Shown here: one piece after another, positions 27,250 to 55,457 of the stretch
How positions within the stretch are numbered: position 1 is the stretch's first letter
How the letters are laid out: the number at the start of each line of letters is the position of its first letter
Program-made: the position numbers and the translations under genes
IMG/VR virus record: IMGVR_UViG_3300029309_000019
Location: 1-56,315 of that record
Length of the DNA: 56,315 bases
DNA from: a virus
Reading direction: 5' to 3' (one strand)
Notes under the pieces: model-generated
Databases searched by the model: none
Seen by the model: only the letters and a program-made list of their open reading frames with translations
Told to the model about the DNA's origin: nothing

Positions 27250-30200
27250 ATGGGAGTTATAGATAAAAGAAATTTTTTAGGTGGTTTAAACAGAGACACC
27301 GAGCAAAGGCTAGTATCCCAAGGAGACTATAGGCATGCATTAAATGTACGTTCAGCTGAAAGTGAGGGAGATGATGTCGGTGCAATAGAAAACATAAAAG
27401 GTTTTGAGCACATTATTAATGATATAGCAGGAGGTGGTAGTTTAGATTTTGAGTGTATAGGAAGCTACCAAGACAAAACCATGGATAGAATCATATACTT
27501 TGTATGTGATATTAGTGGCTCTGGAAGACATAGAATATATGAGTATAGCTTAAAATCTAATGCTATTAATATTTTAGTAGAGTCTCCGTTTCTAAATTTT
27601 CAAACATCGCACTTTATTACGGGCATAAGAGTTGTTGGTCATAGAGAGCCATTTGCTCCTGAAGGTATATTATACTGGACAGACCATATAAACCCTCCTA
27701 GAAAATTAAATATATCAAGTGCTAAACTTGCTAATGGAAGTGGTTTTATTACAGCTACAGGTTATATAGCTCCTCTTACTAACTTTGTATTTAGTAATCC
27801 AGACAGCAACTTACAAGCATATACAGAGATAGATGAAAATTCATTTGATGAATACTATAATCTGATAAAAAAACCACCGACTTCTAAACCAGACATATAT
27901 TTAGACACAGACCCAGAATATAAAGACAATAAAATATATGGAAAAGTAATACAATTTGCTTATAGATATATTTACTCAGATAATGAGGTGTCTGCTTTTT
28001 CTCCTCATAGTTTAATTACAAAAGCTTATAACTATGACCCTAGTTTAAATTTTGATGGTGGTTTGCTTCAAAAGTTTAATAGAGTTAACATACTTGTTAA
28101 CACTGGCCCTTCTGATGTTAAAAGCATTCAGATAGCATCTAAGATACTTTCTCAAGACGAGGGAGATGGTTTTACATCTCAAGAGGGTTGGGCTTTAGTT
28201 GCTGATATAAGCACGTCAAAAGAAAATTTACCACCAAACTCTTCTTATACATATCAATTTTACAACAATGAAGCTACAGAAATACTAGCTGCTTCTCAAA
28301 TAGCAAAACTTTTTGACGATGTTCCTTTGAAAGCTAAAGCACTAGATGTTATTGATGGAGGTCGATTAGTTCTTGGTAACATAACCAACGGATACAATGT
28401 AAATGTGGTTCCTGATGTAAATATAGGACACTTGTATAGTGATGCAAATCTTCCTGATGGTGCAGACTTTCAAGATAATGCTAATGTTTCTATATCTTAT
28501 GATTTAACTTCAAGTTGGCATAATCAAGCCAGACAGTTTGTTCATAAAATAATATTTACATTTGATGATGTAGATGGAGAGCAAGCTGTGGTAGACTTGC
28601 ATGCAAGCGGAACGGTAAATCATGATTGGGGTTCATCATCTGGATGTTGGTTTCAAGGATGTAATAATTGTAATAATTCTTATAGCGCTAGTTATGACTA
28701 TGATATAGAGTATGCTCAAAATTATGCAGGCTTAGACAATCAGGGTGTAACAGGAGCTCAGATGGCTTTAGATTTTTTTAACAACTTTGCTCTTTCAACT
28801 GTTTCTAATATATTACCCAATATAAATAACATAAGAGGAGACGCAGCTAACTTTTGTGGTTCAGGTATTCCTATATATACTGATTTTGGAAATGGTGGTA
28901 ATAGTGGAGACTATTCTATTTCTTTTGATGGAAATGGAGGTATAGACGCTTTAAATAATGCTCCTTTAGCTCAAGGTATAATTGATGACTATACAGAAAT
29001 AGATTTTAATGGTTATTTTGTAGACAATTTTATAAATGTTCCTGGTAGTGATAGCCCTGTATGGCTTTCAATGCCTTCTTCTAATGTTGTAGTTGTAAAT
29101 ATTCATTCATGGGTATACGGACCTGCTGATTGTTGTGATTTTGATGGAGCTCCTTCATTAAGTAGAGTTGTTGAAAATCAAGATTTTAATATTACTGGAT
29201 ATTACGATTTTTTAAACGCTGAAGGTGAAAACTCTATATTTCAGTCTGGATTTAAAACAGGAGCTACACATAATTTAGGTATAGTATATTATGATAAGTT
29301 TAATAGGTCTAGTGCCGTTATGTCGGCTCAAGATAATTCTTTTGATGTTTATATACCTTCTTGGGCTGAAAGAGATATAAATCCAGGACAAGCAAACTTT
29401 TCTTCTTTTTTAACTTGGGAAATAAATCACCTTCCTCCAGAGTGGGCTACTCATTATCAATGGGTATATGCTGGTAATGATTTAATGGACAATTTTGTTC
29501 AGTGCTCTACTCTTGGTATATATGAAGCACTACAGTTTTTTACTGAAAACTCACATCCTCTAAACGGAAAATATCTAATAGATGTTTCTGAGCTATATAG
29601 ATTTGAGTTAGAAAAAGAAAGCCCAAATTTTGGGTGGAATTTTGAAAAAGGAGACAGAGTAAGATTTTTATTAGAAGAAGATGTTGATGGGCAGGTAGGT
29701 TCTTCATTTCAAAATGATACTAATCCAGGCATAATGTTAGAGTTCCAGGTTCTTGGAATTACAGGACAAGGAGAGTATAAAGATATATTTGATGATGATG
29801 TTCATCAAAATAGAGCTTCTAACAGTACAGATATAGGTAATTTTTATCCTGATGCTGGAGACCAATTACATTTAGCAGAGCAAATTACAGAATTAGATGG
29901 TTCTACTACTACAGTTAATAGATTTAAAAAACATAGTAGATTTTTAGTTGTAGAAAGTCAATGGTTAGACTTAAATGTTGCTGAAGTTAGCTCAGGAGTT
30001 AAATATGGCTTTCAAGGTCAAGCTCCATATAAAATGGGTTCTTATATAGAAGTTTATAGACCGAAAGTAAGAAGAGATAAAGAAGATGTATTTTATTATG
30101 AATTTGGCCATAGATATGGTATTTATGATATTGGTGGAGTAAAATATCATGAAGGTCAATTTAGTAATCAAGATGATTTAGGAGGTTTAGCAACTGGTGA

Positions 30201-33200
30201 GTTTAGAAATGGAGATGTTTATTTAAGACATAGAAGTCCAAATAGAAGTGAACTTAAGGCTACATTTGTAGAAGATTACAACCTATCAGATTATTTTGAC
30301 TCTAATTTTTGGGATAAGGGTAGGCCTAATAGAATAAATGAACAAGAAAGACAGGTAGACAGGTTTGCTACTATTTATTATTCAGAGCCTTTTATACCTA
30401 ATACCAACATAAATGGCCTTTCAACATTTAATAGCTCTGGTCTTGTAGATTTGCCGTATGAAGAATACAATAGAGGGTATGGAACAATACAAAAGTTATT
30501 TGCAAAAAACGAATCTTTAATAATATTTCAAGAAGACAAAGTCTCTAGAGCTGTTGTAGAAAGAAATATACTATTCAATGCAGATGGCTCTGGTCAATTA
30601 TCTTCTAGTAATAGAGTTTTATCTCAAGCAATACCTTACAATGGTGAGTATGGTATAAGTCTTCATCCAGAGTCTTTTGCAGAGTATGCTGGCAGAATAT
30701 ATTTCTTTGATTTAGACAGAGGAGCTGTTTTAAGATTATCAAACGATGGATTAACCCCTATATCTGATAATTTTATGAGAGATTATTTTGGTGATAAATC
30801 TCAAAATATAAAAATATATGACGATACAATAAAGATACATGGTGTTTATGATGTTAAAAAAGATGAGTATATTGTATCATTTGGAGGAATATATAGATTA
30901 ACTCCAGTAAATTTATGCGAGATTAGCTCATTAGGTAATTGGACTGCTCAAGAAACTGTTTACACAAGCATCTTAGATGAAGATGGTAATCCAAGTTTAG
31001 ATGAAGATGGTAACCCTATTTTTGGTAATGTTACACAAGATATTATTTATGGACTAGGAGATGTAGTAAGTTATGAAGATGTTTTTTACACTCAAACATG
31101 TCCAGATGGAGCTACAGTAAATCCTCCTACAGAGGACGAATGCTGGTCTGAATGTACCCCATCTATAGGCTGCACTGATATTGATGCTGTAAATTTTGAA
31201 CCATTGGCTATGGTTAATGATGGTAGTTGTGTATATCCATGTTTAGATATAGATATTGATGAGATAGATTTAGTAGTCGAATCAGGTTCATTAGTTGTAT
31301 CTTCTGAAACTGTATCGTATGTAAATAATGAGTATATATCAAATGCTGATGGCGGATTTTCTTTATCTATAATTGGTTCAGACGTTATGTCTGTTTTAAT
31401 TTTAAATCAATCAGGAGATATTGTTTTCTTAGACCTTAACAGTAATGGTGTAATTAATTTACCAGACTTAAATTCTGGTGTTTACACTGTTAATTTTATA
31501 GGAAATGACATATTAGAAACTGACGATTTAGTAGAGGGTATGCCGTTAAATGAAGATGGATTAACCTTATATGAAGAGTATACAGAACTTTTAGAAGCGG
31601 GAGACTATGATGAATATACAGAAGCTTTAGAGATAGCCGATAGAATGTATAACTATTTATTCTACTGTGGTATATCTATAGATGTTGAAGTTCCTTTAGT
31701 TGGTTGTACTGACCCTGCTGCTTTTAACTATGTTCCTGATTCTAGCCTTGATGATGGAGGATGTATATATGAAGTTAATGGATGTCCTGACCCTAATGCT
31801 TTAAATTACTACTGTGATGAAAATCCTGATTTATGTAATTTTTATGATGTTAATGCTCCAGGATGGGAAATAACAGACGATGGCTCTTGCTTGTTTCCTG
31901 TTCCAGGATGTACTTTTGAAGAGGCTGAAAACTATAATCCAAATGCAACTGAAGATGATGGGTCTTGTACTTTTTGTAACACCTTAGAAATATCATTAGA
32001 TTATTCTACAGATGCAACAGCTTATAATTCTACTGATGGAACTTTAGCTGTTTCAGCTAGTGGTGGTACTGGCCCTTATACCTTTTTTATAACTACTGGT
32101 GAAGCTGGTGTAGATGGTGTTTTTTCAAATTTACCAGCTGGAGATTATGAAGTTGTAGTTCAAGATTCAGCAACAGTACCTTGCCAAACATCTCTTGTTG
32201 TTACGATAGACCAACCTGAGCCTACTTCAGGATGTACAGACAACACAGCGTTAAATTATAACTCAGAAGCGCTAGTAGATGATGGGACATGTTTATTTTG
32301 CCCTGCAGATTTTGGATTTGATATAACAGTAACACAACCAATCGTGATAGGTGGTACTGGTGGTTATACTCTTCAAATTCCATTAGACACATCTTATGGT
32401 ACGACAGAGCAACAAACCTTTACTATTACTCTAGCACATGAAGGAGCAACAATTACAAGTTCTACTCAAAATGAGGCTGGTTTTGCTATATCTTCATCAA
32501 CTTTAGCTCCTGGTAATTACGAATATACATTTACAATAGATACAATAGATGTTACAGGCACACCTTCTATACTTAATGGTTGCTCCGAAACATTTAGTTT
32601 TATTATAAATGATTTTAGTTGTGTATCTGATAATCGTCCTACTTTATTTGATGTCATAGATTATGGAGCATCAGGTATTATACTGCCAATAAATACAGCT
32701 CAAATAGAGTGGAGTTTTGGCCCTTTTAATTATATAAATAATCCAAATATAGAGACAACAACAACCTATTCCCAAAATGCTTGTTTGAACAATGGATTTT
32801 TCTCTATTACTGTAGACACAGCAGAAGCTTTTGGAGATTTAGGAAACACAGATGAATTTTGGAATCAATCTGAAATTAGTTTTACATCTGGTGGTAATGA
32901 GAATGTAATTTATTCAATTTACCCATCAGACAGTACTTTATCTGATGAAAGCGGATTTGGTTATAGTTATGATACAGAAAATACAATTAATATCAATCTT
33001 GTTGATACAGTAGTGGATGGTGTTGCTAAAACTACCATAAATGTAACAAACATTCCTGTTGGCACTTTTGATTTGTTTTGGTTTATTTATGATGGCGACT
33101 CTAACCTTCAATGTGGTGAAAAAATAGAAAATATATCTTTTACTTGCAGTGGTTGTACAGATGATGGAAATCAGCCTACAGGCCTTTTATATAGCGTTTA

Positions 33201-34770
33201 TAATCCGTTAGGTATATCTATTCCAGCAGCCAACTACAACCCTAATGCTGTTGAAGACGATGGCTCTTGCCAATACGTTGTTAATGGTTGTACTGACGAA
33301 GAAAACATTCATTATGGTCAAAATTGCTCCTATATGTATTGGAGCATAGGTCAAGGTGAAAATGATGGAGCAATAGCTTGGAATATAGCAACAAATCCTA
33401 CTACAGGTGGATTATTTATAGACATGCCTAATGTAACTTTAGAGGATACTCCAGGTTGCCCTTGCTTAGTTGGAGGATGTACAGACCCTGAATCTGACAC
33501 CTATAATCCAGATGCCGACTACCTAGTTGCAGCAGATTGTGAATATTACGGATGTATGGAAGAAAATGCTTTGAACTATGATGCACAGCATACTTCTGAC
33601 CCTAATGATGAATGTCTTTTTTGTTCAGACGCTTCTACAATAAATGCTTCTGTAGATATAGATTACCTAGATAATGCTGAAGGAACCGCTCATGTTAATA
33701 TAACAGTTCAATCCGATACGTATCCATATACAGTACAATTCTATCATTCAGGCATGGAAGGTAATAATCAGTACTCTATACAATACACTGTGAATACTAA
33801 CTATGAAACAACTATACAGCTTACTGAAGATATGGGGCCAGTGCCACCTATAGAAGGTATAGGGCCTCTTATATACATTAATTATGCAGGAATTTTTGCA
33901 AACTGTCCTGTTAATATAGATTTAGACTCCAATGGAACATCTGAAGGGTTGGATTATAATGTTATAGAAGTTTTCCTTACACCAAAAATATGTCCTAGTC
34001 AAGATACTGATTTAGAGATATATAAAATTACACATCCATATATATATTTTGGTCACCCTTTAAATGGTAGTTATGCTTTTAAAACTCATAATAATGTTGG
34101 TACAGCTGCTGTTATTAAGTTTGATTTACTTGGGGCTACAGGAGACAATTATAGTCTAAATAGCTGGTGGAATAATGATGATAATTATTTACCTTATCCT
34201 AAATTAAAAAGAATTGAATTTTATGTTTTAGAAGGGCCTGTAGCGTTAAATAAATCTACCAATAATGAAGGATTAACAGATGGCAATACTTTAACTGGTT
34301 TCCCATCATTTAGCCCAGACCTTTATGGTTCAGACCCAGACATTGTTTTTGGTGGTGAAAATTATTTAGCCGACAATTCTGAAGGGTCAGGTATGCTTAG
34401 AATGATTGTGCCTTCTAAAGCTAATTCTGATGTAGATAATCCTGTTGGAATTTTAAAAGTAACTTATATTATAGAAGAAGAAGAGGGTGGAGACGAAATA
34501 GCTTGCAAGTTTTGGTACAAATTTTGGAATAGCGCTAGAAAAACTGGAACACGAACCTATACAGGTACGTATGGTTATTCCGTAGAACGTGAAGCTATTA
34601 CAGACCCTGTAATTCAAATGGAAACAGATATAGGTTCAGAATTTGGAGGTGGAGGTTTACCCCCTGTATTTACTGTAGCAAACGAATGGTTTACTGATAA
34701 TTTTTCAGAAATATCTTTAGGCAATGTTGTCGAAGAAAATCTTAATGCACTCTTAGATGAAATAGAATAA
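27250..34770 (+). CDS. Giant tail hub/stabilisation protein with SprB-like and DGSC repeats, 2506 aa
   Basis: The N-terminus (NFLGGLNRDTEQRLVSQGDY, then RHALNVRS) matches the start of P22 gp10-type tail stabilisation/hub proteins of podoviruses. The first 1200 residues look like that beta-propeller/hub part. From about residue 1307 the protein changes to surface-adhesin modules: repeats of the type GCTD..A.NY.P.A..DDGSC near residues 1307, 1485, 1511, 1553, 1661 and 1967-2100 (six to nine, some degenerate), and a SprB-like repeat at about 1577-1655 (SASGGTGPYTFFITTG, NLPAGDYEVVVQDSA, VTIDQPEP). The same DGSC repeats occur in the secreted protein at 51939-53795. The C-terminal 300 residues are unassigned. 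Probably a tail with receptor-binding extensions. Confidence 0.8.
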   Translation: MGVIDKRNFLGGLNRDTEQRLVSQGDYRHALNVRSAESEGDDVGAIENIKGFEHIINDIAGGGSLDFECIGSYQDKTMDRIIYFVCDISGSGRHRIYEYSLKSNAINILVESPFLNFQTSHFITGIRVVGHREPFAPEGILYWTDHINPPRKLNISSAKLANGSGFITATGYIAPLTNFVFSNPDSNLQAYTEIDENSFDEYYNLIKKPPTSKPDIYLDTDPEYKDNKIYGKVIQFAYRYIYSDNEVSAFSPHSLITKAYNYDPSLNFDGGLLQKFNRVNILVNTGPSDVKSIQIASKILSQDEGDGFTSQEGWALVADISTSKENLPPNSSYTYQFYNNEATEILAASQIAKLFDDVPLKAKALDVIDGGRLVLGNITNGYNVNVVPDVNIGHLYSDANLPDGADFQDNANVSISYDLTSSWHNQARQFVHKIIFTFDDVDGEQAVVDLHASGTVNHDWGSSSGCWFQGCNNCNNSYSASYDYDIEYAQNYAGLDNQGVTGAQMALDFFNNFALSTVSNILPNINNIRGDAANFCGSGIPIYTDFGNGGNSGDYSISFDGNGGIDALNNAPLAQGIIDDYTEIDFNGYFVDNFINVPGSDSPVWLSMPSSNVVVVNIHSWVYGPADCCDFDGAPSLSRVVENQDFNITGYYDFLNAEGENSIFQSGFKTGATHNLGIVYYDKFNRSSAVMSAQDNSFDVYIPSWAERDINPGQANFSSFLTWEINHLPPEWATHYQWVYAGNDLMDNFVQCSTLGIYEALQFFTENSHPLNGKYLIDVSELYRFELEKESPNFGWNFEKGDRVRFLLEEDVDGQVGSSFQNDTNPGIMLEFQVLGITGQGEYKDIFDDDVHQNRASNSTDIGNFYPDAGDQLHLAEQITELDGSTTTVNRFKKHSRFLVVESQWLDLNVAEVSSGVKYGFQGQAPYKMGSYIEVYRPKVRRDKEDVFYYEFGHRYGIYDIGGVKYHEGQFSNQDDLGGLATGEFRNGDVYLRHRSPNRSELKATFVEDYNLSDYFDSNFWDKGRPNRINEQERQVDRFATIYYSEPFIPNTNINGLSTFNSSGLVDLPYEEYNRGYGTIQKLFAKNESLIIFQEDKVSRAVVERNILFNADGSGQLSSSNRVLSQAIPYNGEYGISLHPESFAEYAGRIYFFDLDRGAVLRLSNDGLTPISDNFMRDYFGDKSQNIKIYDDTIKIHGVYDVKKDEYIVSFGGIYRLTPVNLCEISSLGNWTAQETVYTSILDEDGNPSLDEDGNPIFGNVTQDIIYGLGDVVSYEDVFYTQTCPDGATVNPPTEDECWSECTPSIGCTDIDAVNFEPLAMVNDGSCVYPCLDIDIDEIDLVVESGSLVVSSETVSYVNNEYISNADGGFSLSIIGSDVMSVLILNQSGDIVFLDLNSNGVINLPDLNSGVYTVNFIGNDILETDDLVEGMPLNEDGLTLYEEYTELLEAGDYDEYTEALEIADRMYNYLFYCGISIDVEVPLVGCTDPAAFNYVPDSSLDDGGCIYEVNGCPDPNALNYYCDENPDLCNFYDVNAPGWEITDDGSCLFPVPGCTFEEAENYNPNATEDDGSCTFCNTLEISLDYSTDATAYNSTDGTLAVSASGGTGPYTFFITTGEAGVDGVFSNLPAGDYEVVVQDSATVPCQTSLVVTIDQPEPTSGCTDNTALNYNSEALVDDGTCLFCPADFGFDITVTQPIVIGGTGGYTLQIPLDTSYGTTEQQTFTITLAHEGATITSSTQNEAGFAISSSTLAPGNYEYTFTIDTIDVTGTPSILNGCSETFSFIINDFSCVSDNRPTLFDVIDYGASGIILPINTAQIEWSFGPFNYINNPNIETTTTYSQNACLNNGFFSITVDTAEAFGDLGNTDEFWNQSEISFTSGGNENVIYSIYPSDSTLSDESGFGYSYDTENTININLVDTVVDGVAKTTINVTNIPVGTFDLFWFIYDGDSNLQCGEKIENISFTCSGCTDDGNQPTGLLYSVYNPLGISIPAANYNPNAVEDDGSCQYVVNGCTDEENIHYGQNCSYMYWSIGQGENDGAIAWNIATNPTTGGLFIDMPNVTLEDTPGCPCLVGGCTDPESDTYNPDADYLVAADCEYYGCMEENALNYDAQHTSDPNDECLFCSDASTINASVDIDYLDNAEGTAHVNITVQSDTYPYTVQFYHSGMEGNNQYSIQYTVNTNYETTIQLTEDMGPVPPIEGIGPLIYINYAGIFANCPVNIDLDSNGTSEGLDYNVIEVFLTPKICPSQDTDLEIYKITHPYIYFGHPLNGSYAFKTHNNVGTAAVIKFDLLGATGDNYSLNSWWNNDDNYLPYPKLKRIEFYVLEGPVALNKSTNNEGLTDGNTLTGFPSFSPDLYGSDPDIVFGGENYLADNSEGSGMLRMIVPSKANSDVDNPVGILKVTYIIEEEEGGDEIACKFWYKFWNSARKTGTRTYTGTYGYSVEREAITDPVIQMETDIGSEFGGGGLPPVFTVANEWFTDNFSEISLGNVVEENLNALLDEIE

Positions 34771-35699: not shown

Positions 35700-36341
35700 A
35701 TGCCCATAGAATTATCAGAAGACCAAAATATTGTATTTGTAGATGGTGAATTTTATATAAGAGATTATATATTGCCGCCAGAGACAGTAGCTTTTCATGA
35801 AAAAACAAATAGATGGACAACATTTTATTCTTTTTTCCCAGAAGCTTTTTGTCAAATTGGATTAGAAGTAGCTTCATTTTTGAGAGGCGAACTATTTATA
35901 CATGATAGAGATGAATTAAACTACAATAGATTTGCAGCTGAAAATCCTTTGGGTCAGCCAGTTTTTTATTATTACCCATCTGAGGTTACTGTAATAAGTA
36001 ATGCTAGCCCTTCTGAAAACAAGATATATCAATCATTATCAGAGGAATCTAGCGATATATGGGAGGTAGAATACATGGAAACTGAAAATGGTCAGATAAC
36101 AAGAATACCTGAAAATGCCTTTACAAAAGGAGCTATTTATTCTTTTCAACCAGGACACGGAACAAAAGAAAATGTACATTATGCCAACATCCCTATGGAT
36201 GAAAATAGTCCAGGAGGAATAGTTAACGGTAGTAGAATGAGAGATTATTCTTTGATAACTAAATTTAGTTATTTTAAAAATAAACTTACAAAACTTTTTG
36301 CCGTAAACTTTAACGTAACAAAGTCTTATAGAAACGATTAA
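35700..36341 (+). CDS. Tail protein, crAss-like tail-hub partner, 213 aa
   Basis: Starts MPIELSEDQNIVFVDGEFYI. The segment FHEKTNRWTTFYSFFPEAFC (about residues 32-51) resembles a conserved (V)(A)FHE.t..W.SF.SF.PE motif found at the end of stabilisation proteins in Bacteroidota podoviruses, including crAss-like ones. Here it is a separate gene after the hub. Probably part of the tail hub complex. It is the last gene before the promoter at 36342-36373. Confidence 0.6.
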   Translation: MPIELSEDQNIVFVDGEFYIRDYILPPETVAFHEKTNRWTTFYSFFPEAFCQIGLEVASFLRGELFIHDRDELNYNRFAAENPLGQPVFYYYPSEVTVISNASPSENKIYQSLSEESSDIWEVEYMETENGQITRIPENAFTKGAIYSFQPGHGTKENVHYANIPMDENSPGGIVNGSRMRDYSLITKFSYFKNKLTKLFAVNFNVTKSYRND

Positions 36342-50198: not shown

Positions 50199-51233
50199 AT
50201 GAAAAAAATAGCTTACTTATTATTATTTTTTTTGTTATCGCTATCTGCGACAGCACAGTTTAAGAAAGCTATAAAATTTTCTACATTCTATGTGGCTGCT
50301 AATGGGGGTACATCTTTATCAGATAGAGAGGTGTACTCTGTTAATAGTAGCACACTATTATACGACACAATTATTACACCATACGATTACTCATTAGCTA
50401 TGGGTATACGTAAAATACAGAGGTTTCAATATGAACCTCAACTACCATTTAAAGATGGTACAGAATCCTCTTTTTCTGATGCGGCTAACATAGGCAGAAA
50501 TCCTTTTGAGTATTTATTTCAAATAGAATATAAAAGACAAGAGGGGATAGAATACTTAGACCAACATCATTTTATAAGATACATTAGACCAAAATGGTTT
50601 ACAAAAGCTGAGTATATTAAAGATGGTTTTGCAGACATAGAATACTTTGAAGGCACACATAGACTAAGATTGAATGGTAGCAAAAAGTTATCATTCAATA
50701 TAGGTGCTGTGCAAAGGCTAGCAGAACCATATGGCTATGACCCGCTAGAAGAGTGGACAATGACTACTGGTGATATACACTATACACAGCTAGCTATTGA
50801 AGAAGGATATAGTATAGATGTGTATGAATCTGAATATAGAGCGCCAAGCGGTGCTATTGTAGCAACTAGTTCTGAAGTATGGAATGAAGTTGTTATGCCA
50901 CAAGTATTAGAAGACTATGTGTCTAATAAAAGAGGACAGTTAGCTAATCAGTGGCAACACTCACTAGTTATAGGATTTGATTTCTATCACTACAAGAAAA
51001 ACTTTTGGTTACACTCCTGGGGTAACCTAATGCCTTATCACTATGATGATGATAGTGAATACTCTTATCATAATTTTAATGACGAAGAACAATGGTATGA
51101 TTACTCAGGTGGTATTATATTTGGATTGAAAGCAACTAAAAGTTTGGGTTGTTTTATAGAAGGAAAATACAATAAGTACTGGAATAAAGAATGGTACGGA
51201 TTTAAATTAGGAATTAACTACGTTATACTTTAA
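50199..51233 (+). CDS. Exported protein, probable outer-membrane barrel, 344 aa
   Basis: The N-terminus MKKIAYLLLFFLLSLSATAQ is a clear Sec signal peptide with an Ala-x-Ala type cleavage (TAQ is common in Bacteroidota). The mature part alternates aromatic and polar residues in strand-length runs and ends with SLGCFIEGKYNKYWNKEWYG followed by FKLGINYVIL, an outer-membrane-barrel-like closing strand. It would sit in the host outer membrane, not in the virion. A phage gene of this kind could alter the host surface, for example by blocking receptors, but nothing here shows it. First gene of the envelope cassette. Confidence 0.65.
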   Translation: MKKIAYLLLFFLLSLSATAQFKKAIKFSTFYVAANGGTSLSDREVYSVNSSTLLYDTIITPYDYSLAMGIRKIQRFQYEPQLPFKDGTESSFSDAANIGRNPFEYLFQIEYKRQEGIEYLDQHHFIRYIRPKWFTKAEYIKDGFADIEYFEGTHRLRLNGSKKLSFNIGAVQRLAEPYGYDPLEEWTMTTGDIHYTQLAIEEGYSIDVYESEYRAPSGAIVATSSEVWNEVVMPQVLEDYVSNKRGQLANQWQHSLVIGFDFYHYKKNFWLHSWGNLMPYHYDDDSEYSYHNFNDEEQWYDYSGGIIFGLKATKSLGCFIEGKYNKYWNKEWYGFKLGINYVIL

Positions 51234-51236
51234 AAG

Positions 51237-51323
51237 ATGAAAAAAATTTGTAACTTAATTAAAATGTTAACTTTTGGAAAAGTGTGTTTAGGACACTGCT
51301 GTTCTAGTAACTGTGAGAGATAA
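51237..51323 (+). CDS. Cysteine-rich mini-peptide, 28 aa
   Basis: MKKICNLIKMLTFGKVCLGH then CCSSNCER: five cysteines in 28 residues (positions 5, 17, 21, 22, 26), with a short hydrophobic/basic N-terminus. It starts 3 bp after the barrel gene, and its TAA overlaps the next ATG (TAATG at 51323). Too short for a standard signal peptide plus mature domain. Perhaps a membrane-associated or metal-binding peptide. Function unknown. Confidence 0.5.
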   Translation: MKKICNLIKMLTFGKVCLGHCCSSNCER

Positions 51324-51601
51324 TGGCAACTGAGATAAGCAAAGAAACAAAACTAAAATTAAGTTTAGAAACTATAATAGCTATAGGTTTTGTGTTAGTA
51401 ACAATGACTGGTATGTGGTTTACATTGAAAGCTGAAATACAAGAGGCAAAAGAATTACCTGAGCCACCACCAGCAGAAGTTACACGAATGGAGTTTGATA
51501 TGAAAGACCAGCTTGTGCGTCAAACAATAATGACTACACAAGAGGATGTGAAAGAAATCAAGGAGACACTAGAAAAAATAGAACGAAAGATTTATCAATA
51601 A
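51323..51601 (+). CDS. Single-TM protein with coiled-coil tail, holin/spanin-like candidate, 92 aa
   Basis: A short basic N-terminus, one transmembrane span (TIIAIGFVLVTMTGMWFTL, residues about 17-35), a Pro/Glu linker (KELPEPPPAEV) and a long charged helix (EDVKEIKETLEKIERKIYQ). N-terminal anchor plus periplasmic-style coiled coil is the plan of inner-membrane spanins and some holins. The stop and the next ATG overlap (TAATG at 51601). The lysis role is an inference. Confidence 0.55.
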   Translation: MATEISKETKLKLSLETIIAIGFVLVTMTGMWFTLKAEIQEAKELPEPPPAEVTRMEFDMKDQLVRQTIMTTQEDVKEIKETLEKIERKIYQ

Positions 51602-51939
51602 TGTGGAAATACTTTGGAACCTATTTATTAGTATTATTTTTCTTGGCTCTCTCGCATATTGCTTCATGTCAGGTGACAGCGATTCATTTTAACGCTGGCT
51701 TTAACGCTCATAATGATGTTGAGTGGTTTGATGAGTTAGTGGATTGTGAAAAAGAAAGCAAGACCATTGATGGTAATGACAATCAAAAAAAGTACACGAT
51801 AGCAGTTGTACCTACTATAATTGTGTTTGATGAAGGAGAAGAGGTGAAAAGATTTCAAGCAGACCTAAGTTTTAAAATGGTAGCTACTGAAAAAGATGTG
51901 CAGGATTATATTGATGAATTAATAATGAGTAAATTTTAA
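51601..51939 (+). CDS. Thioredoxin-fold lipoprotein lacking the CxxC, 112 aa
   Basis: N-terminal hydrophobic signal ending IASC (lipobox, Cys23), so probably a lipoprotein. The mature part follows the thioredoxin order: a strand VTAIHFNAGFN where Trp-Cys-x-x-Cys would normally occur, a helix, then YTIAVVPTIIVFDEGEEVKR, which matches the cis-proline 'v.(V/I)PT...f..g..v.r' region, and a final helix. The catalytic CxxC is absent (HFNAGFNAHND), so it cannot be a standard oxidoreductase. It may be a structural or protein-binding module in the periplasm or outer membrane. One-base overlaps with both neighbours. Confidence 0.65.
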   Translation: MWKYFGTYLLVLFFLALSHIASCQVTAIHFNAGFNAHNDVEWFDELVDCEKESKTIDGNDNQKKYTIAVVPTIIVFDEGEEVKRFQADLSFKMVATEKDVQDYIDELIMSKF

Positions 51940-53795
51940 TGAACAACTTTACTAAATTTTTATACGCTTTTATAATATTTATAGTATTTACTATTTCTAT
52001 TTCTTTTGGACAATGCCCTCCAAGTACATGGAGTTTAAATGTAACTATAAATCCTGACCAGTATCCAGAAGAGACATCATTTTATGTTTTGAACTTAGGT
52101 GGTGACACTATTTTTCAAGGGGGCCCTTTTGAAAATATAGTAGATTATCAACCTCAATATATTAGCTCCTGTGTACCAATAGATAGTTTTATATTAGTTT
52201 TAAAAGATGAATATGGTGATGGTATGGCTGGTAGTTTATGGGGCGGTAATGATGGCTCTGTATACATAGAACAATGTGGCGATACAATTTGGCAACTAGA
52301 CACACCAGACTTTGGTTATGAAATATACGATACAATATATACTTCTGGATGCCCTCCTCCCGCACCAATATATGGTTGCATGGATGAAAACTTTTTAGAG
52401 TTTTTACCAGTGGCAACAGTTGATACTGGTATGTGTGTTACACCAAAACTATTTGGTTGCACTGATTCACTAGCTTTTAACTACGATTCTACAGCTAATA
52501 TAGATGAATATATAGATAGCTGTGCACATGAACTAGAATTAACCGACCTAGCTGGAAATGGTTGGGCTGGTTCTACACTGAAATTATATCAAGCAACAAA
52601 CATAGTACCTCCGTTTAATTATGAAGATATTGGTACATACACATTAATAGATGGTTTTGATACGACTTTCTTTATAAACCTAGCAGCAGATTATCCTGTC
52701 AAAGCAGTATTTGAAATTACACAACAATCAGACTTCACAGCAGTACAATGTGGATTTAGCTTGTACTCTGAAGATTATGTAGCTATAGATATAGAAGGTG
52801 GATTTGTAAATCCTATACCACCATTCTTGCCAATCATGGCAGAACCATACTGTGGTAACACTTGTATAGAAAGAACATATGGCTGTATAGACAGCTTAGC
52901 AGTAAATTATAACGACACAGTAAATACAGATGATGAAACTTGCTATTATAATCCAGGGTGTACTAATCCAATTTATTTGGAGTACAATGCGCTTTATGAC
53001 TACGATGATGGTTCGTGTGCTACGTTGGTTGCATACGGATGCATGGACTCAACTGCATTTAATTACGACCCTTTGGCTAACGTGGAGCTACCTGGCTCTT
53101 GTATTGCTGTCGTAGAGGGCTGTATGGACGATGGTGCATTTAATTACAATATAAACGCTAATGTTGATGACGGAAGCTGTATACCTCTTATATTTGGCTG
53201 TATAGAGCCGTCTGCATTTAATTACTGTGATACATGTAATACAGACAATGGTAGCTGTATAGACGTTGTAAATGGCTGTATGGACAGTTTAGCACTAAAC
53301 TACAATCCTTTAGCAAATGTAGATAATGGTTCTTGTATATTACCATTGGCGGGCTGCACTGATGTAACTGCAGTTAATTATAATGTTAATGCTAACATAC
53401 CTGACAGTAGCTGTTACTATGAGTCTGGTTGTTATGCTACAGTACCGTATTACATTCCTAATGCTTGTTTTGAATGGGTTATAGATATAGACCCTTATTG
53501 TTGTGATGACAGTTGGGATAACACATGTTATGACTTATATAATTATTGCCAAGATGGATGGTCGGGGCCAGTAAGCGTTGACATGTATAAGAGAACTAAA
53601 TATATACCTTATCCAAACCCAACAAGAGACTACGTAAACTTTACTGAATTAGTAGATGTATTGGTTATAGATAATTTAGGTAAGAACCATAAGTTATATA
53701 AGAATACTAAAAGAATAAAATTAGATAAAGGAATAAACTATATAAAAGTTTCAAACAATAAATTAAGTTTTACTACTATAATAATTGTACAGTAG
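51939..53795 (+). CDS. Secreted DGSC-repeat protein with T9SS sorting domain, 618 aa
   Basis: A Sec signal peptide (LYAFIIFIVFTISISFGQ, cleaved after about residue 25) is followed by a beta domain, then nine copies (residues about 145-490) of a ~22-residue repeat like EGCMDDGAFNYNINANVDDG then SC, several containing the acidic DDGSC motif. A second beta domain lies between repeats 2 and 3. The C-terminus (about 557-618) is a type A T9SS sorting domain: PYPNPTRDYVNF, VLVIDNLGKNHKLY, IKLDKGINYIKVSNNKLSFT. T9SS exports proteins across the outer membrane of Bacteroidota and removes this domain on anchoring. A phage gene encoding a T9SS cargo is unusual. The same repeats occur in the tail hub (27250-34770). 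Possible roles: receptor decoy, superinfection exclusion, biofilm or surface change. Confidence 0.85.
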   Translation: MNNFTKFLYAFIIFIVFTISISFGQCPPSTWSLNVTINPDQYPEETSFYVLNLGGDTIFQGGPFENIVDYQPQYISSCVPIDSFILVLKDEYGDGMAGSLWGGNDGSVYIEQCGDTIWQLDTPDFGYEIYDTIYTSGCPPPAPIYGCMDENFLEFLPVATVDTGMCVTPKLFGCTDSLAFNYDSTANIDEYIDSCAHELELTDLAGNGWAGSTLKLYQATNIVPPFNYEDIGTYTLIDGFDTTFFINLAADYPVKAVFEITQQSDFTAVQCGFSLYSEDYVAIDIEGGFVNPIPPFLPIMAEPYCGNTCIERTYGCIDSLAVNYNDTVNTDDETCYYNPGCTNPIYLEYNALYDYDDGSCATLVAYGCMDSTAFNYDPLANVELPGSCIAVVEGCMDDGAFNYNINANVDDGSCIPLIFGCIEPSAFNYCDTCNTDNGSCIDVVNGCMDSLALNYNPLANVDNGSCILPLAGCTDVTAVNYNVNANIPDSSCYYESGCYATVPYYIPNACFEWVIDIDPYCCDDSWDNTCYDLYNYCQDGWSGPVSVDMYKRTKYIPYPNPTRDYVNFTELVDVLVIDNLGKNHKLYKNTKRIKLDKGINYIKVSNNKLSFTTIIIVQ

Positions 53796-53798
53796 AAG

Positions 53799-54122
53799 AT
53801 GAGTAAAAGTAAATACTATTATGATTACACAAGAAATATGAGTAACGAACAAATACAAAAAATTTGCACAGAAGAATGTGATTGTGTGGAAAATAAAAAT
53901 AAATTAATTGACATATTCAAAGATGACAATAATTATAATGAAAAATCTATTGTAGGATTTATAGCATTTGCTATCATGATTTTTGTTATATTTGTAGATG
54001 TGATTACTGGTTTCTTTGGAAAGGACTTAGTTATAAAAGAATTTGTATATAATTCATTTGTGGTTATAGTTTTAGGTTCTTTTGGAATCAGTGGAGTAGA
54101 AAAAATATTTAATAAAAAATAA
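53799..54122 (+). CDS. Two-TM protein, holin candidate, 107 aa
   Basis: A hydrophilic N-terminus with ICTEECDCVENKNK, then two hydrophobic spans (VGFIAFAIMIFVIFVDVITG, about residues 52-71, and EFVYNSFVVIVLGSFGISGV, about residues 81-100) and a basic end (EKIFNKK). Size, two spans and location near the DUF5675 gene fit a class II holin. The cysteine-bearing soluble N-terminus is unusual. No direct evidence. Confidence 0.55.
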   Translation: MSKSKYYYDYTRNMSNEQIQKICTEECDCVENKNKLIDIFKDDNNYNEKSIVGFIAFAIMIFVIFVDVITGFFGKDLVIKEFVYNSFVVIVLGSFGISGVEKIFNKK

Positions 54123-54123
54123 A

Positions 54124-54531
54124 ATGGCAAAATTAAATGTATCTTTGACATTAACTTCTACAGATATACTACCTGGAGAATTAAGCTTTACAGAGACAGA
54201 TGAAATCACTGTTACTGGTGTAACTAGTGGATTTGGTACTACTGATGCTCCTGTATCAGGTGGTTCAATAACTCACATAAACTCTGTATCTTTTGCTGGT
54301 ACGAATAAGAAAGCTTATATTTATCTAAAGCATACAGGATTAAAAGGAGATGGTACTACAACCTCAACTGACAACTTAAATGTTTATGATGATGATGATA
54401 AAGCTATCGCTATCTTAGCTCCAGGTGAGTTTTTGTTTTTACCAGTTCAGGATAATAATGACGTTGCTGTTCGTTCAGCTAGTGGTTCTAACACTATTCA
54501 GGTAGAGTTCTTTTTTGTTGAAGCAGACTAA
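54124..54531 (+). CDS. Virion structural protein, first of a tandem pair, 135 aa
   Basis: MAKLNVSLTLTSTDILPGEL, then AYIYLKHTGLKGDGTTTSTD and a closing LAPGEFLFLPVQDNNDVAVR / VEFFFVEAD. Highly similar in layout to the next gene: matching MAK start, YLKHTG motif, LAPGEF motif and FFVEA end. Such proteins recur in phage particles as tail or decoration subunits. It starts 1 bp after the preceding stop. Confidence 0.65.
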   Translation: MAKLNVSLTLTSTDILPGELSFTETDEITVTGVTSGFGTTDAPVSGGSITHINSVSFAGTNKKAYIYLKHTGLKGDGTTTSTDNLNVYDDDDKAIAILAPGEFLFLPVQDNNDVAVRSASGSNTIQVEFFFVEAD

Positions 54532-54544
54532 TTAAAATAATAAA

Positions 54545-54985
54545 ATGGCAAAATTTTCGGTAAATTTATCAATAAGAAGCACAGAGCTTTTTTCTAATCA
54601 AGATGTTGTTATATCTGAAAGCGACACTCTTACTGCTGGTGGAGACGTTGTTGGATATGGTAAACTTGTTGTACCTTCTGGTAATGCGCATGGCTCAGCA
54701 ATACCAGTAAACGTTGCAGATAGTTTTTCAGCTAAATCTTACGTATATCTAAAACACACAGGATTTGATGGTGATGGCTCTACAGCTACATCTCTTAATA
54801 TTCTTGTATTCAATAGCGCTAGTACAAAAATTCAGTTTGCTACATTAGCTCCAGGTGAGTTCATGATTCTTCCTTATATAGGAGGTGGAGACTTTACAGA
54901 CATCAATGTTTGTACATCTGACGCTTCTGGTTCAGCTACTACTGACCAAGCAACACTTGAGTACTTCTTTGTAGAAGCAGCGTAG
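54545..54985 (+). CDS. Virion structural protein, second of a tandem pair, 146 aa
   Basis: MAKFSVNLSIRSTELFSNQD, SYVYLKHTGFDGDGSTATSL, TLAPGEFMILPYIGGG and LEYFFVEAA align by eye with the 135-aa neighbour, indicating a duplicated gene pair. Divergence is greatest in the first third and near the C-terminal turn. It ends 1 bp before the DUF5675 gene. Likely virion component. Confidence 0.65.
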   Translation: MAKFSVNLSIRSTELFSNQDVVISESDTLTAGGDVVGYGKLVVPSGNAHGSAIPVNVADSFSAKSYVYLKHTGFDGDGSTATSLNILVFNSASTKIQFATLAPGEFMILPYIGGGDFTDINVCTSDASGSATTDQATLEYFFVEAA

Positions 54986-54986
54986 T

Positions 54987-55457
54987 ATGGAGCTTGAGGT
55001 ATTAAGATTTAGCTCTCAGTCAGATTGTACTAACGGTTTACTTTTTGAAGTAACAGATTTAGGTAAAAGATTTTTGTGCTATACTTTGGAGGATGAACAT
55101 AGAGCTTCCAAGGTTAAGGGAGAGACAAGAATACCAGAAGGTAGATATGAAATCAAACTTCGTAAGGAAGGTGGTTTTCATTCTCGTTACGAGAAAAAAT
55201 ATGCAGGAATGCATAAAGGTATGTTACATGTTCAGGATGTTCCAGGGTTTGAATGGATACTAATCCACACAGGTAACACTGATGAACATACCGCAGGATG
55301 TTTGCTTGTTGCTGATACACAACAAAATAACATCATTGTAAAAGATGGATTTATTGGTCAATCAGTAAATGCATACAAAAGAATATATCCTCCTATAGCT
55401 GAGGCTATAGAAAATAATGAGGATGTCTATATAACGTATATAGACTACGATTTGTAA
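54987..55457 (+). CDS. DUF5675 family protein, possible lysis-related enzyme, 156 aa
   Basis: MELEVLRFSSQSDCTNGLLF, then CYTLEDEHR, IPEGRYEIKLRKEGGFHSRY and VPGFEWILIHTGNTDEHTAG then CLLV. This is the DUF5675 pattern (YTLED, (I/T)(A)IP.G.Y, VP.f..i.iH.GN...(D/H)T.GC). The His and the GC Cys recall the catalytic His/Cys of L,D-transpeptidases, so a cell-wall role is a reasonable hypothesis, supported by its place at the end of the late genes after a holin-like gene. The family itself has no established function that I know. Confidence 0.75.
   Translation: MELEVLRFSSQSDCTNGLLFEVTDLGKRFLCYTLEDEHRASKVKGETRIPEGRYEIKLRKEGGFHSRYEKKYAGMHKGMLHVQDVPGFEWILIHTGNTDEHTAGCLLVADTQQNNIIVKDGFIGQSVNAYKRIYPPIAEAIENNEDVYITYIDYDL

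Follow-up and report, generated by a model that had tools for sequence, protein, structure and literature searches.

Phage genes that alter the outer surface of the host and exclude other phages are known, among them those for the Lc porin of phage PA-2 and the Llp protein of T5. Neither makes use of the type IX secretion system (T9SS), and both are unrelated in sequence to the locus described here, for which an exclusion role is conjectural. Closer to this locus are two reports of T9SS cargo in phages. Cryophage, described in 2020, carries three T9SS type A cargo proteins, from which the authors proposed hijacking of the host T9SS and superinfection exclusion (PMC7468147); this cargo consists of an endoglucanase, a GH39 protein and a PA14 protein, encoded by variable genes of a single phage (PMC7468147). 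In 2019 one crAss-BACON ORF was found to end in a sorting domain (PMC6949934); in the crAss-BACON cluster 2 phages, which are crAss-like phages of the gut with BACON repeats, T9SS sorting-domain proteins are encoded near the structural genes, and the passages concerned describe no envelope cassette (PMC6949934). Among bacterial proteins, type A substrates such as RgpB, NucA and PorZ join a Sec signal peptide to a C-terminal Ig-like domain bearing the motifs YPNP, D-x-x-G-K and G-x-Y, while type B substrates are clustered with outer-membrane partners (PMC12618676; PMC10202324), as in the linked genes of type B substrates and PorP/SprF proteins (PMC12618676).

The DNA analysed here (the window) comprises the 56,315 nucleotides at positions 1 to 56,315 of IMG/VR record IMGVR_UViG_3300029309_000019, a 64.7-kb viral contig. 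Like Cryophage, a Bacteroidota phage, it encodes a type A sorting-domain protein; unlike the Cryophage cargo, the protein belongs to one conserved Cys-repeat family, placed in a fixed envelope cassette and present in many phage lineages. With the bacterial type A substrates it has in common the Sec signal peptide and the Ig-like C-terminal domain (CTD), from which it differs in being phage-encoded, in lacking the lysine of motif E and in scoring under the curated cut-offs. As with the type B pairs, the substrate gene is linked to an outer-membrane partner gene, but the phage CTD is of type A and the 344-residue partner has no detectable homology to PorP/SprF or PorV. The cassette was not described in the literature searched, subscription papers and preprints lying outside its coverage. 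What looks new is a mobile and conserved cassette whose outer-membrane-like partner is confined to phages, T9SS phage cargo as such being already known. A sequence-only reading of this DNA was silent on the earlier phage T9SS cargo (PMC7468147; PMC6949934), on the conserved cassette and on the loss of the motif-E lysine.

Phage origin of the locus

The window is the DNA of a crAss-like podovirus, probably of marine Bacteroidota. Its terminase and portal match the phage families phrog_6681 and phrog_6547; the terminase shares 36-41% identity with those of Elemovirus and an environmental podovirus, its similarity to those of Pachyviridae, Pervagoviridae and Crassvirales being more distant, and the crAss muzzle model crAss_MUZ_C is matched at position 35700 with 24.9 bits, slightly under its 27-bit cut-off. 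Homologues of the T9SS protein are encoded in 44 viral contigs, and GC content is constant across its gene. The sequence-only reading had taken this to be a phage gene, which was borne out by the 44 viral homologues and by the crAss muzzle, crAss-like terminase and crAss-like portal nearby. Host contamination, a source of doubt that it had named, was rejected on the conserved gene order among the viral homologues and the unchanged GC.

Two observations concern other parts of the record. A GroES-like domain (Cpn10, E 1.6e-11) is encoded by the phage at 9976-10581, near the terminase gene, as in phi38:1. Near position 920 of L052 (about position 56316 of the record), a short run of N lies just past the window end, and a metallophosphoesterase frame is joined there to a TM/coiled-coil frame; a fusion protein is less likely here than a join made in scaffolding.

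The 618-residue protein and its sorting domain

The gene at 51939..53795, on the plus strand, was delineated from the ORF list, profile searches and Foldseek and encodes a protein of 618 residues with a Sec signal peptide and a type A CTD. The signal peptide (residues 1-24; 51939..52010) was called from sequence reading and hydropathy, a judgement rather than a SignalP result: the N-terminus (MNNFTKFLYAFIIFIVFTISISFGQ|C) has a hydrophobic stretch of 2.95 on the Kyte-Doolittle scale and no lipobox, and a hydrophobic N-terminus ending SFG|Q is retained in relatives. It is followed by an N-terminal beta domain with 59% mean identity to relatives (residues 25-138; 52011..52352), GC-x-D repeats 1 and 2 (residues 139-195; 52353..52523), and an inserted beta domain (residues 196-304; 52524..52850) that parts repeats 2 and 3. 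Repeats 3-9, of the form GC-x-D/N/E and with a period of about 26 residues (residues 305-497; 52851..53429), lead into a Cys-rich helical domain (residues 498-545; 53430..53573), which a variable linker separates from the CTD (residues 558-618; 53610..53792). All of these features are on the plus strand. The nine GC-x-[DNE] starts fall at residues 146, 173, 315, 340, 367, 394, 420, 446 and 472; seven of the nine repeats follow a strict GCxDxxAxNY-like pattern, and a D-x-x-[ST]-C box is recognisable in only five. The Sec signal peptide and the nine repeats had both been called in the sequence-only reading, and both stood, the second with the D-x-x-[ST]-C box in those five.

Mean identity across 24 relatives was highest in the repeats (75%) and lowest in the CTD (42%), signal peptide (33%) and linker (29%), a pattern that would be expected if the ends of the protein serve as address labels and the middle is its working part. 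A fold search with the full-length protein returned only low-TM matches outside the CTD, so no function was read from the N-terminal domains, and no enzymatic or binding family was matched in searches with family models. The same GC/DGSC repeats are found in a 2506-residue protein without a signal peptide (27250..34770, plus strand) within the virion structural block, which also has a weak SprB-repeat match (E 0.001); a large repeat-bearing protein is likewise present in relatives L003, L013, L042 and L046.

The CTD of the window copy matches TIGR04183 with E 0.0073 and 16.3 bits (profile positions 2-72 of 72) and PF18962 with E 0.067 and 13.9 bits, under the curated cut-offs of 23 and 27 bits, respectively. 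A six-frame search scored the domain at 20.5 bits, and a 19.5-bit match was found inside another ORF of the same record; scores of 16-20 bits are within the reach of chance in this record, and HMM evidence from the single protein was rejected as too weak for proof. The comparison with these two models, which had been proposed along with the claim of a type A sorting domain, gave scores under the cut-offs for the window copy and matches for most of its homologues: 29 of 34 viral homologues matched each model at E<=0.1 (best 3.8e-11 for TIGR04183 and 1.7e-11 for PF18962). When the domain was sought in related viral records, the curated cut-off was exceeded at the C-terminus of the gene in 29 of 39, versus 1 of 14 control genomes. 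A profile built from the C-terminal 123 residues found the NucA CTD from a solved T9SS complex (8glk_D, 1.1e-7), 8glj_D (1.4e-6) and the RgpB CTD (about 1e-3). An AlphaFold (AF2) model of the C-terminal segment had pLDDT values of 73-90 over the domain, and Foldseek placed 8glk_D first (E 1.9e-4) and the RgpB CTD 7pq4 second, with PorZ and mirolase CTDs in the top seven. Because the homologue matches, the records above cut-off, the C-terminal profile and the fold of the model agree, the type A T9SS sorting domain claimed from sequence is confirmed as real.

Motifs A (YPNP), B (DNLGK) and D (KGINYIKVS) are present in the window CTD, and motif E is without its usual lysine. It reads TTIIIVQ in the window and in its closest relatives L005, L015 and L032, and TTKLIIE or similar in most others. 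This lysine has been reported as required for efficient secretion (PMC10202324).

Several homologues (L035, L037, L038, L039, L040, L133, L135, L138 and L146) end not in the type A CTD but in a tail of 40 residues, ITDxLGRP..KNKLLFYIYxDGTVERKxIK, which matched no Pfam or NCBIfam model. The same tail terminates several different proteins of a cassette-bearing Flavobacteriales MAG (L174, L176, L178, L182 and L183), and at least four of the tail-bearing proteins of this MAG have signal-peptide-like starts. Among 148 genomes searched, 13 match rows fell in the Flavobacteriales MAG and one in one other genome, and it may function as a short sorting tail, so far undescribed, in that group of hosts. 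The Flavobacteriales MAG with the cassette also encodes PorV and PorP, along with 44 CTD matches.

The envelope cassette and its movement among phages

Three further genes on the plus strand lead up to that of the T9SS protein. They encode a 344-residue outer-membrane-like protein (50199..51233), a 92-residue single-TM protein with a likely coiled-coil tail, judged by eye (51323..51601), and a 112-residue exported thioredoxin-fold protein without CxxC (51601..51939), whose gene overlaps the start of the T9SS gene by one base. A DUF5675 protein (54987..55457, plus strand) is a common neighbour. By hydropathy, the only strong hydrophobic starts among the listed late genes are those at 50199, 51323, 51601 and 51939, all consecutive (50199-53795), in keeping with the earlier placement of the T9SS gene among envelope genes.

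The linkage holds from either side. At the 44 loci with a T9SS gene, the outer-membrane-like gene stands beside it in 39, the TM gene in 40 and the thioredoxin-like gene in 41. The 344-residue family is present in at least 585 viral contigs, and the 79 examined contain a T9SS-protein homologue in 72 cases, the TM protein in 72, the thioredoxin-like protein in 69 and DUF5675 in 45. A home-built profile detected the CTD at 56 of these 79 loci, many of the others being cut by contig ends or differently tailed. In at least five phages the gene order is rotated, with the cassette genes still together.

The 344-residue protein is the most conserved of the cassette. It has a signal peptide and a hydrophobic/aromatic C-terminal end, and most members of the family combine a signal peptide with an aromatic end; from these features it looks like an outer-membrane protein, presumably a beta-barrel. 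Comparison by hhalign gave a probability of 26% for PorP/SprF, over the signal-peptide end, and 0.6% for PorV, against 94% for a PorP-PorV control, and so lent no support to the partner as a phage PorP/SprF or PorV. The likeness to the PorP/SprF pairs is therefore one of arrangement, not of membership. The 112-residue protein has a thioredoxin fold (best match 1.2e-6) and a very conserved RFQADLSF motif, and is present in at least 69 of the 79 cassette loci. The CxxC motif is absent throughout its family, on which ground a thiol-oxidase role was rejected and oxidoreductase activity is improbable.

Across L003-L046, the cassette proteins start with near-identical signal peptides (MNxFTKFLYAFI.., MKYLITLLLC.., MKKIAYLYIF..) that are swapped between homologues and also between different cassette genes, as if they were exchanged as modules. 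Directly 3' of the T9SS gene, 53799-54122 encodes a 107-residue protein with strong TM hydropathy, a relative of which is present at only 6 of the 44 loci. The adjacent genes 54124-54531 and 54545-54985 encode small, paralogous-looking proteins that both start with MAK and end with FFVEA; in other phages, similar small proteins are dispersed about the cassette.

The cassette moves between phage lineages, as the identity of the outer-membrane-like protein is out of step with that of the terminase. In L004 and L045, the 344-residue proteins are 85% identical to that of the window and the terminases 28-29%, with no portal match, while phages with terminases 43-45% identical to the window's have 344-residue proteins only 61-76% identical. 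On the 129-kb contig of L044, few genes are shared with the other loci, and the four of the cassette belong to these. Because it travels among phages with unrelated portals and terminases, the cassette is better read as an accessory module than as a virion structural part, in agreement with the view of the sequence-only reading that the T9SS protein is not part of the virion.

Among 296 sampled Bacteroidota genomes, the 344-residue family was found only in a MAG whose contig holds the cassette. In a bacterial/archaeal collection the gene was held by three contigs, all with the cassette; L051 from this collection, which has a terminase on the same contig, looks viral. The 3.8-kb contig L050, binned as part of a Nitrosopelagicus (archaeal) MAG, holds the phage cassette and is probably mis-binned viral DNA. 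Both the T9SS and the outer-membrane-like gene are missing from the isolated relatives (Elemovirus, Pachyviridae, Pervagoviridae and gut Crassvirales), so the cassette is dispensable in the wider group, and protein searches of deposited phages found nothing closely related to the T9SS protein or to its outer-membrane-like and thioredoxin-like neighbours.

Possible roles at the surface of the infected cell

The four genes of the cassette would be expressed late in infection. The 618-residue protein would be exported through Sec, and its type A CTD would then be recognised by the T9SS of the host. PorV/PorU is the known route for type A substrates, and crossing of the outer membrane would involve handling of this type, after which the Cys-rich repeat part would be displayed by the infected cell or set free. 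The co-inherited 344-residue protein, the obvious candidate partner of the 618-residue protein, probably resides in the outer membrane too and might retain it there or act as its receiver. A surface altered in this way could stop the adsorption of other phages or of sister virions, as superinfection exclusion or debris avoidance. That the cassette exports a T9SS protein to remodel the infected-cell surface, most likely blocking adsorption, has an about even chance of being right. Adsorption blocking is preferred for a module that is self-contained, confined to phages, passed from one phage to another and directed at the cell surface, and movement of such a self-contained unit among phages that are otherwise unrelated agrees with an accessory function there. 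Against the surface model stand the missing motif-E lysine of the window copy and its three closest relatives, the 344-residue protein without detectable relation to PorP/SprF or PorV, and the absence of the cassette from the isolated relatives. The sequence-only reading had likewise suggested an altered surface, by receptor decoy, superinfection exclusion or adhesion; nothing points specifically to exclusion over other surface roles. The repeats common to the T9SS protein and the 2506-residue protein would fit the conjecture that the former, once secreted, competes with the module by which the phage itself binds to surfaces.

The late position of the cassette also agrees with a module for breaching the outer membrane in lysis, whose envelope proteins, with the adjoining DUF5675 protein, would destabilise the membrane or open a release path. 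DUF5675 is next to the cassette at 45 of the 79 loci, a recognised spanin was not found beside it, and lysis modules are likewise swapped among phages. However, T9SS export of a long adhesin-like protein is unneeded for lysis, no cassette protein matched a lysis family, and several relatives (L004, L046) have a separate 3TM-holin-like gene away from the cassette (matches slightly under the Pfam cut-off), all of which makes a lysis function unlikely.

It is similarly improbable that the T9SS protein confers an adhesive or ecological trait on the infected cell (particle attachment, clumping, or polymer or metal binding) that aids phage spread instead of blocking phages. Its long Cys-rich repeats and beta domains are adhesin-like, and enzymes are among the T9SS cargo of Cryophage (PMC7468147), but it has no match to an enzymatic or binding family, and its phage-only outer-membrane partner suggests a role centred on the phage. 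The sub-cut-off scores and missing motif-E lysine of the window copy might instead mark a decayed C-terminus or a chance look-alike in a protein not exported by the T9SS; this is very unlikely given the intact frame, the full-length homology to relatives with strong CTDs, and a predicted CTD fold whose best matches are T9SS CTDs. A virion component, for instance one that decorates the particle or binds receptors and is like secreted proteins only in appearance, would account for the repeats in the 2506-residue protein of the structural block but is scarcely credible for a protein with both a signal peptide, which the 2506-residue protein lacks, and a CTD, each conserved, and with a cassette common to phages with unrelated portals and terminases.

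Remodelling of the infected-cell surface through the host T9SS remains the preferred reading, and it can be extended tentatively. In several unrelated lineages of marine Bacteroidota phages, the locus may be a mobile cassette for takeover of the envelope, with the phage-only outer-membrane protein as dedicated receiver or anchor for the phage T9SS substrate, both rebuilding the surface with the secretion motor of the host. Sorting tails might then be swapped to suit each host, one of them the short, undescribed tail with which unrelated secreted-looking proteins of a Flavobacteriales genome end as well.

Phage T9SS cargo, previously a matter of isolated mentions, is now part of a fixed, widespread and horizontally moving cassette in hundreds of marine viral contigs, which lets annotators name several anonymous phage gene families jointly. 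It also raises the testable question of whether phages of Bacteroidota routinely use the type IX system of the host for surface remodelling, and whether they do so as an answer to superinfection. From the sequences at hand, it is probable that many marine phages of otherwise separate lineages coat the cells they infect or change their surface.
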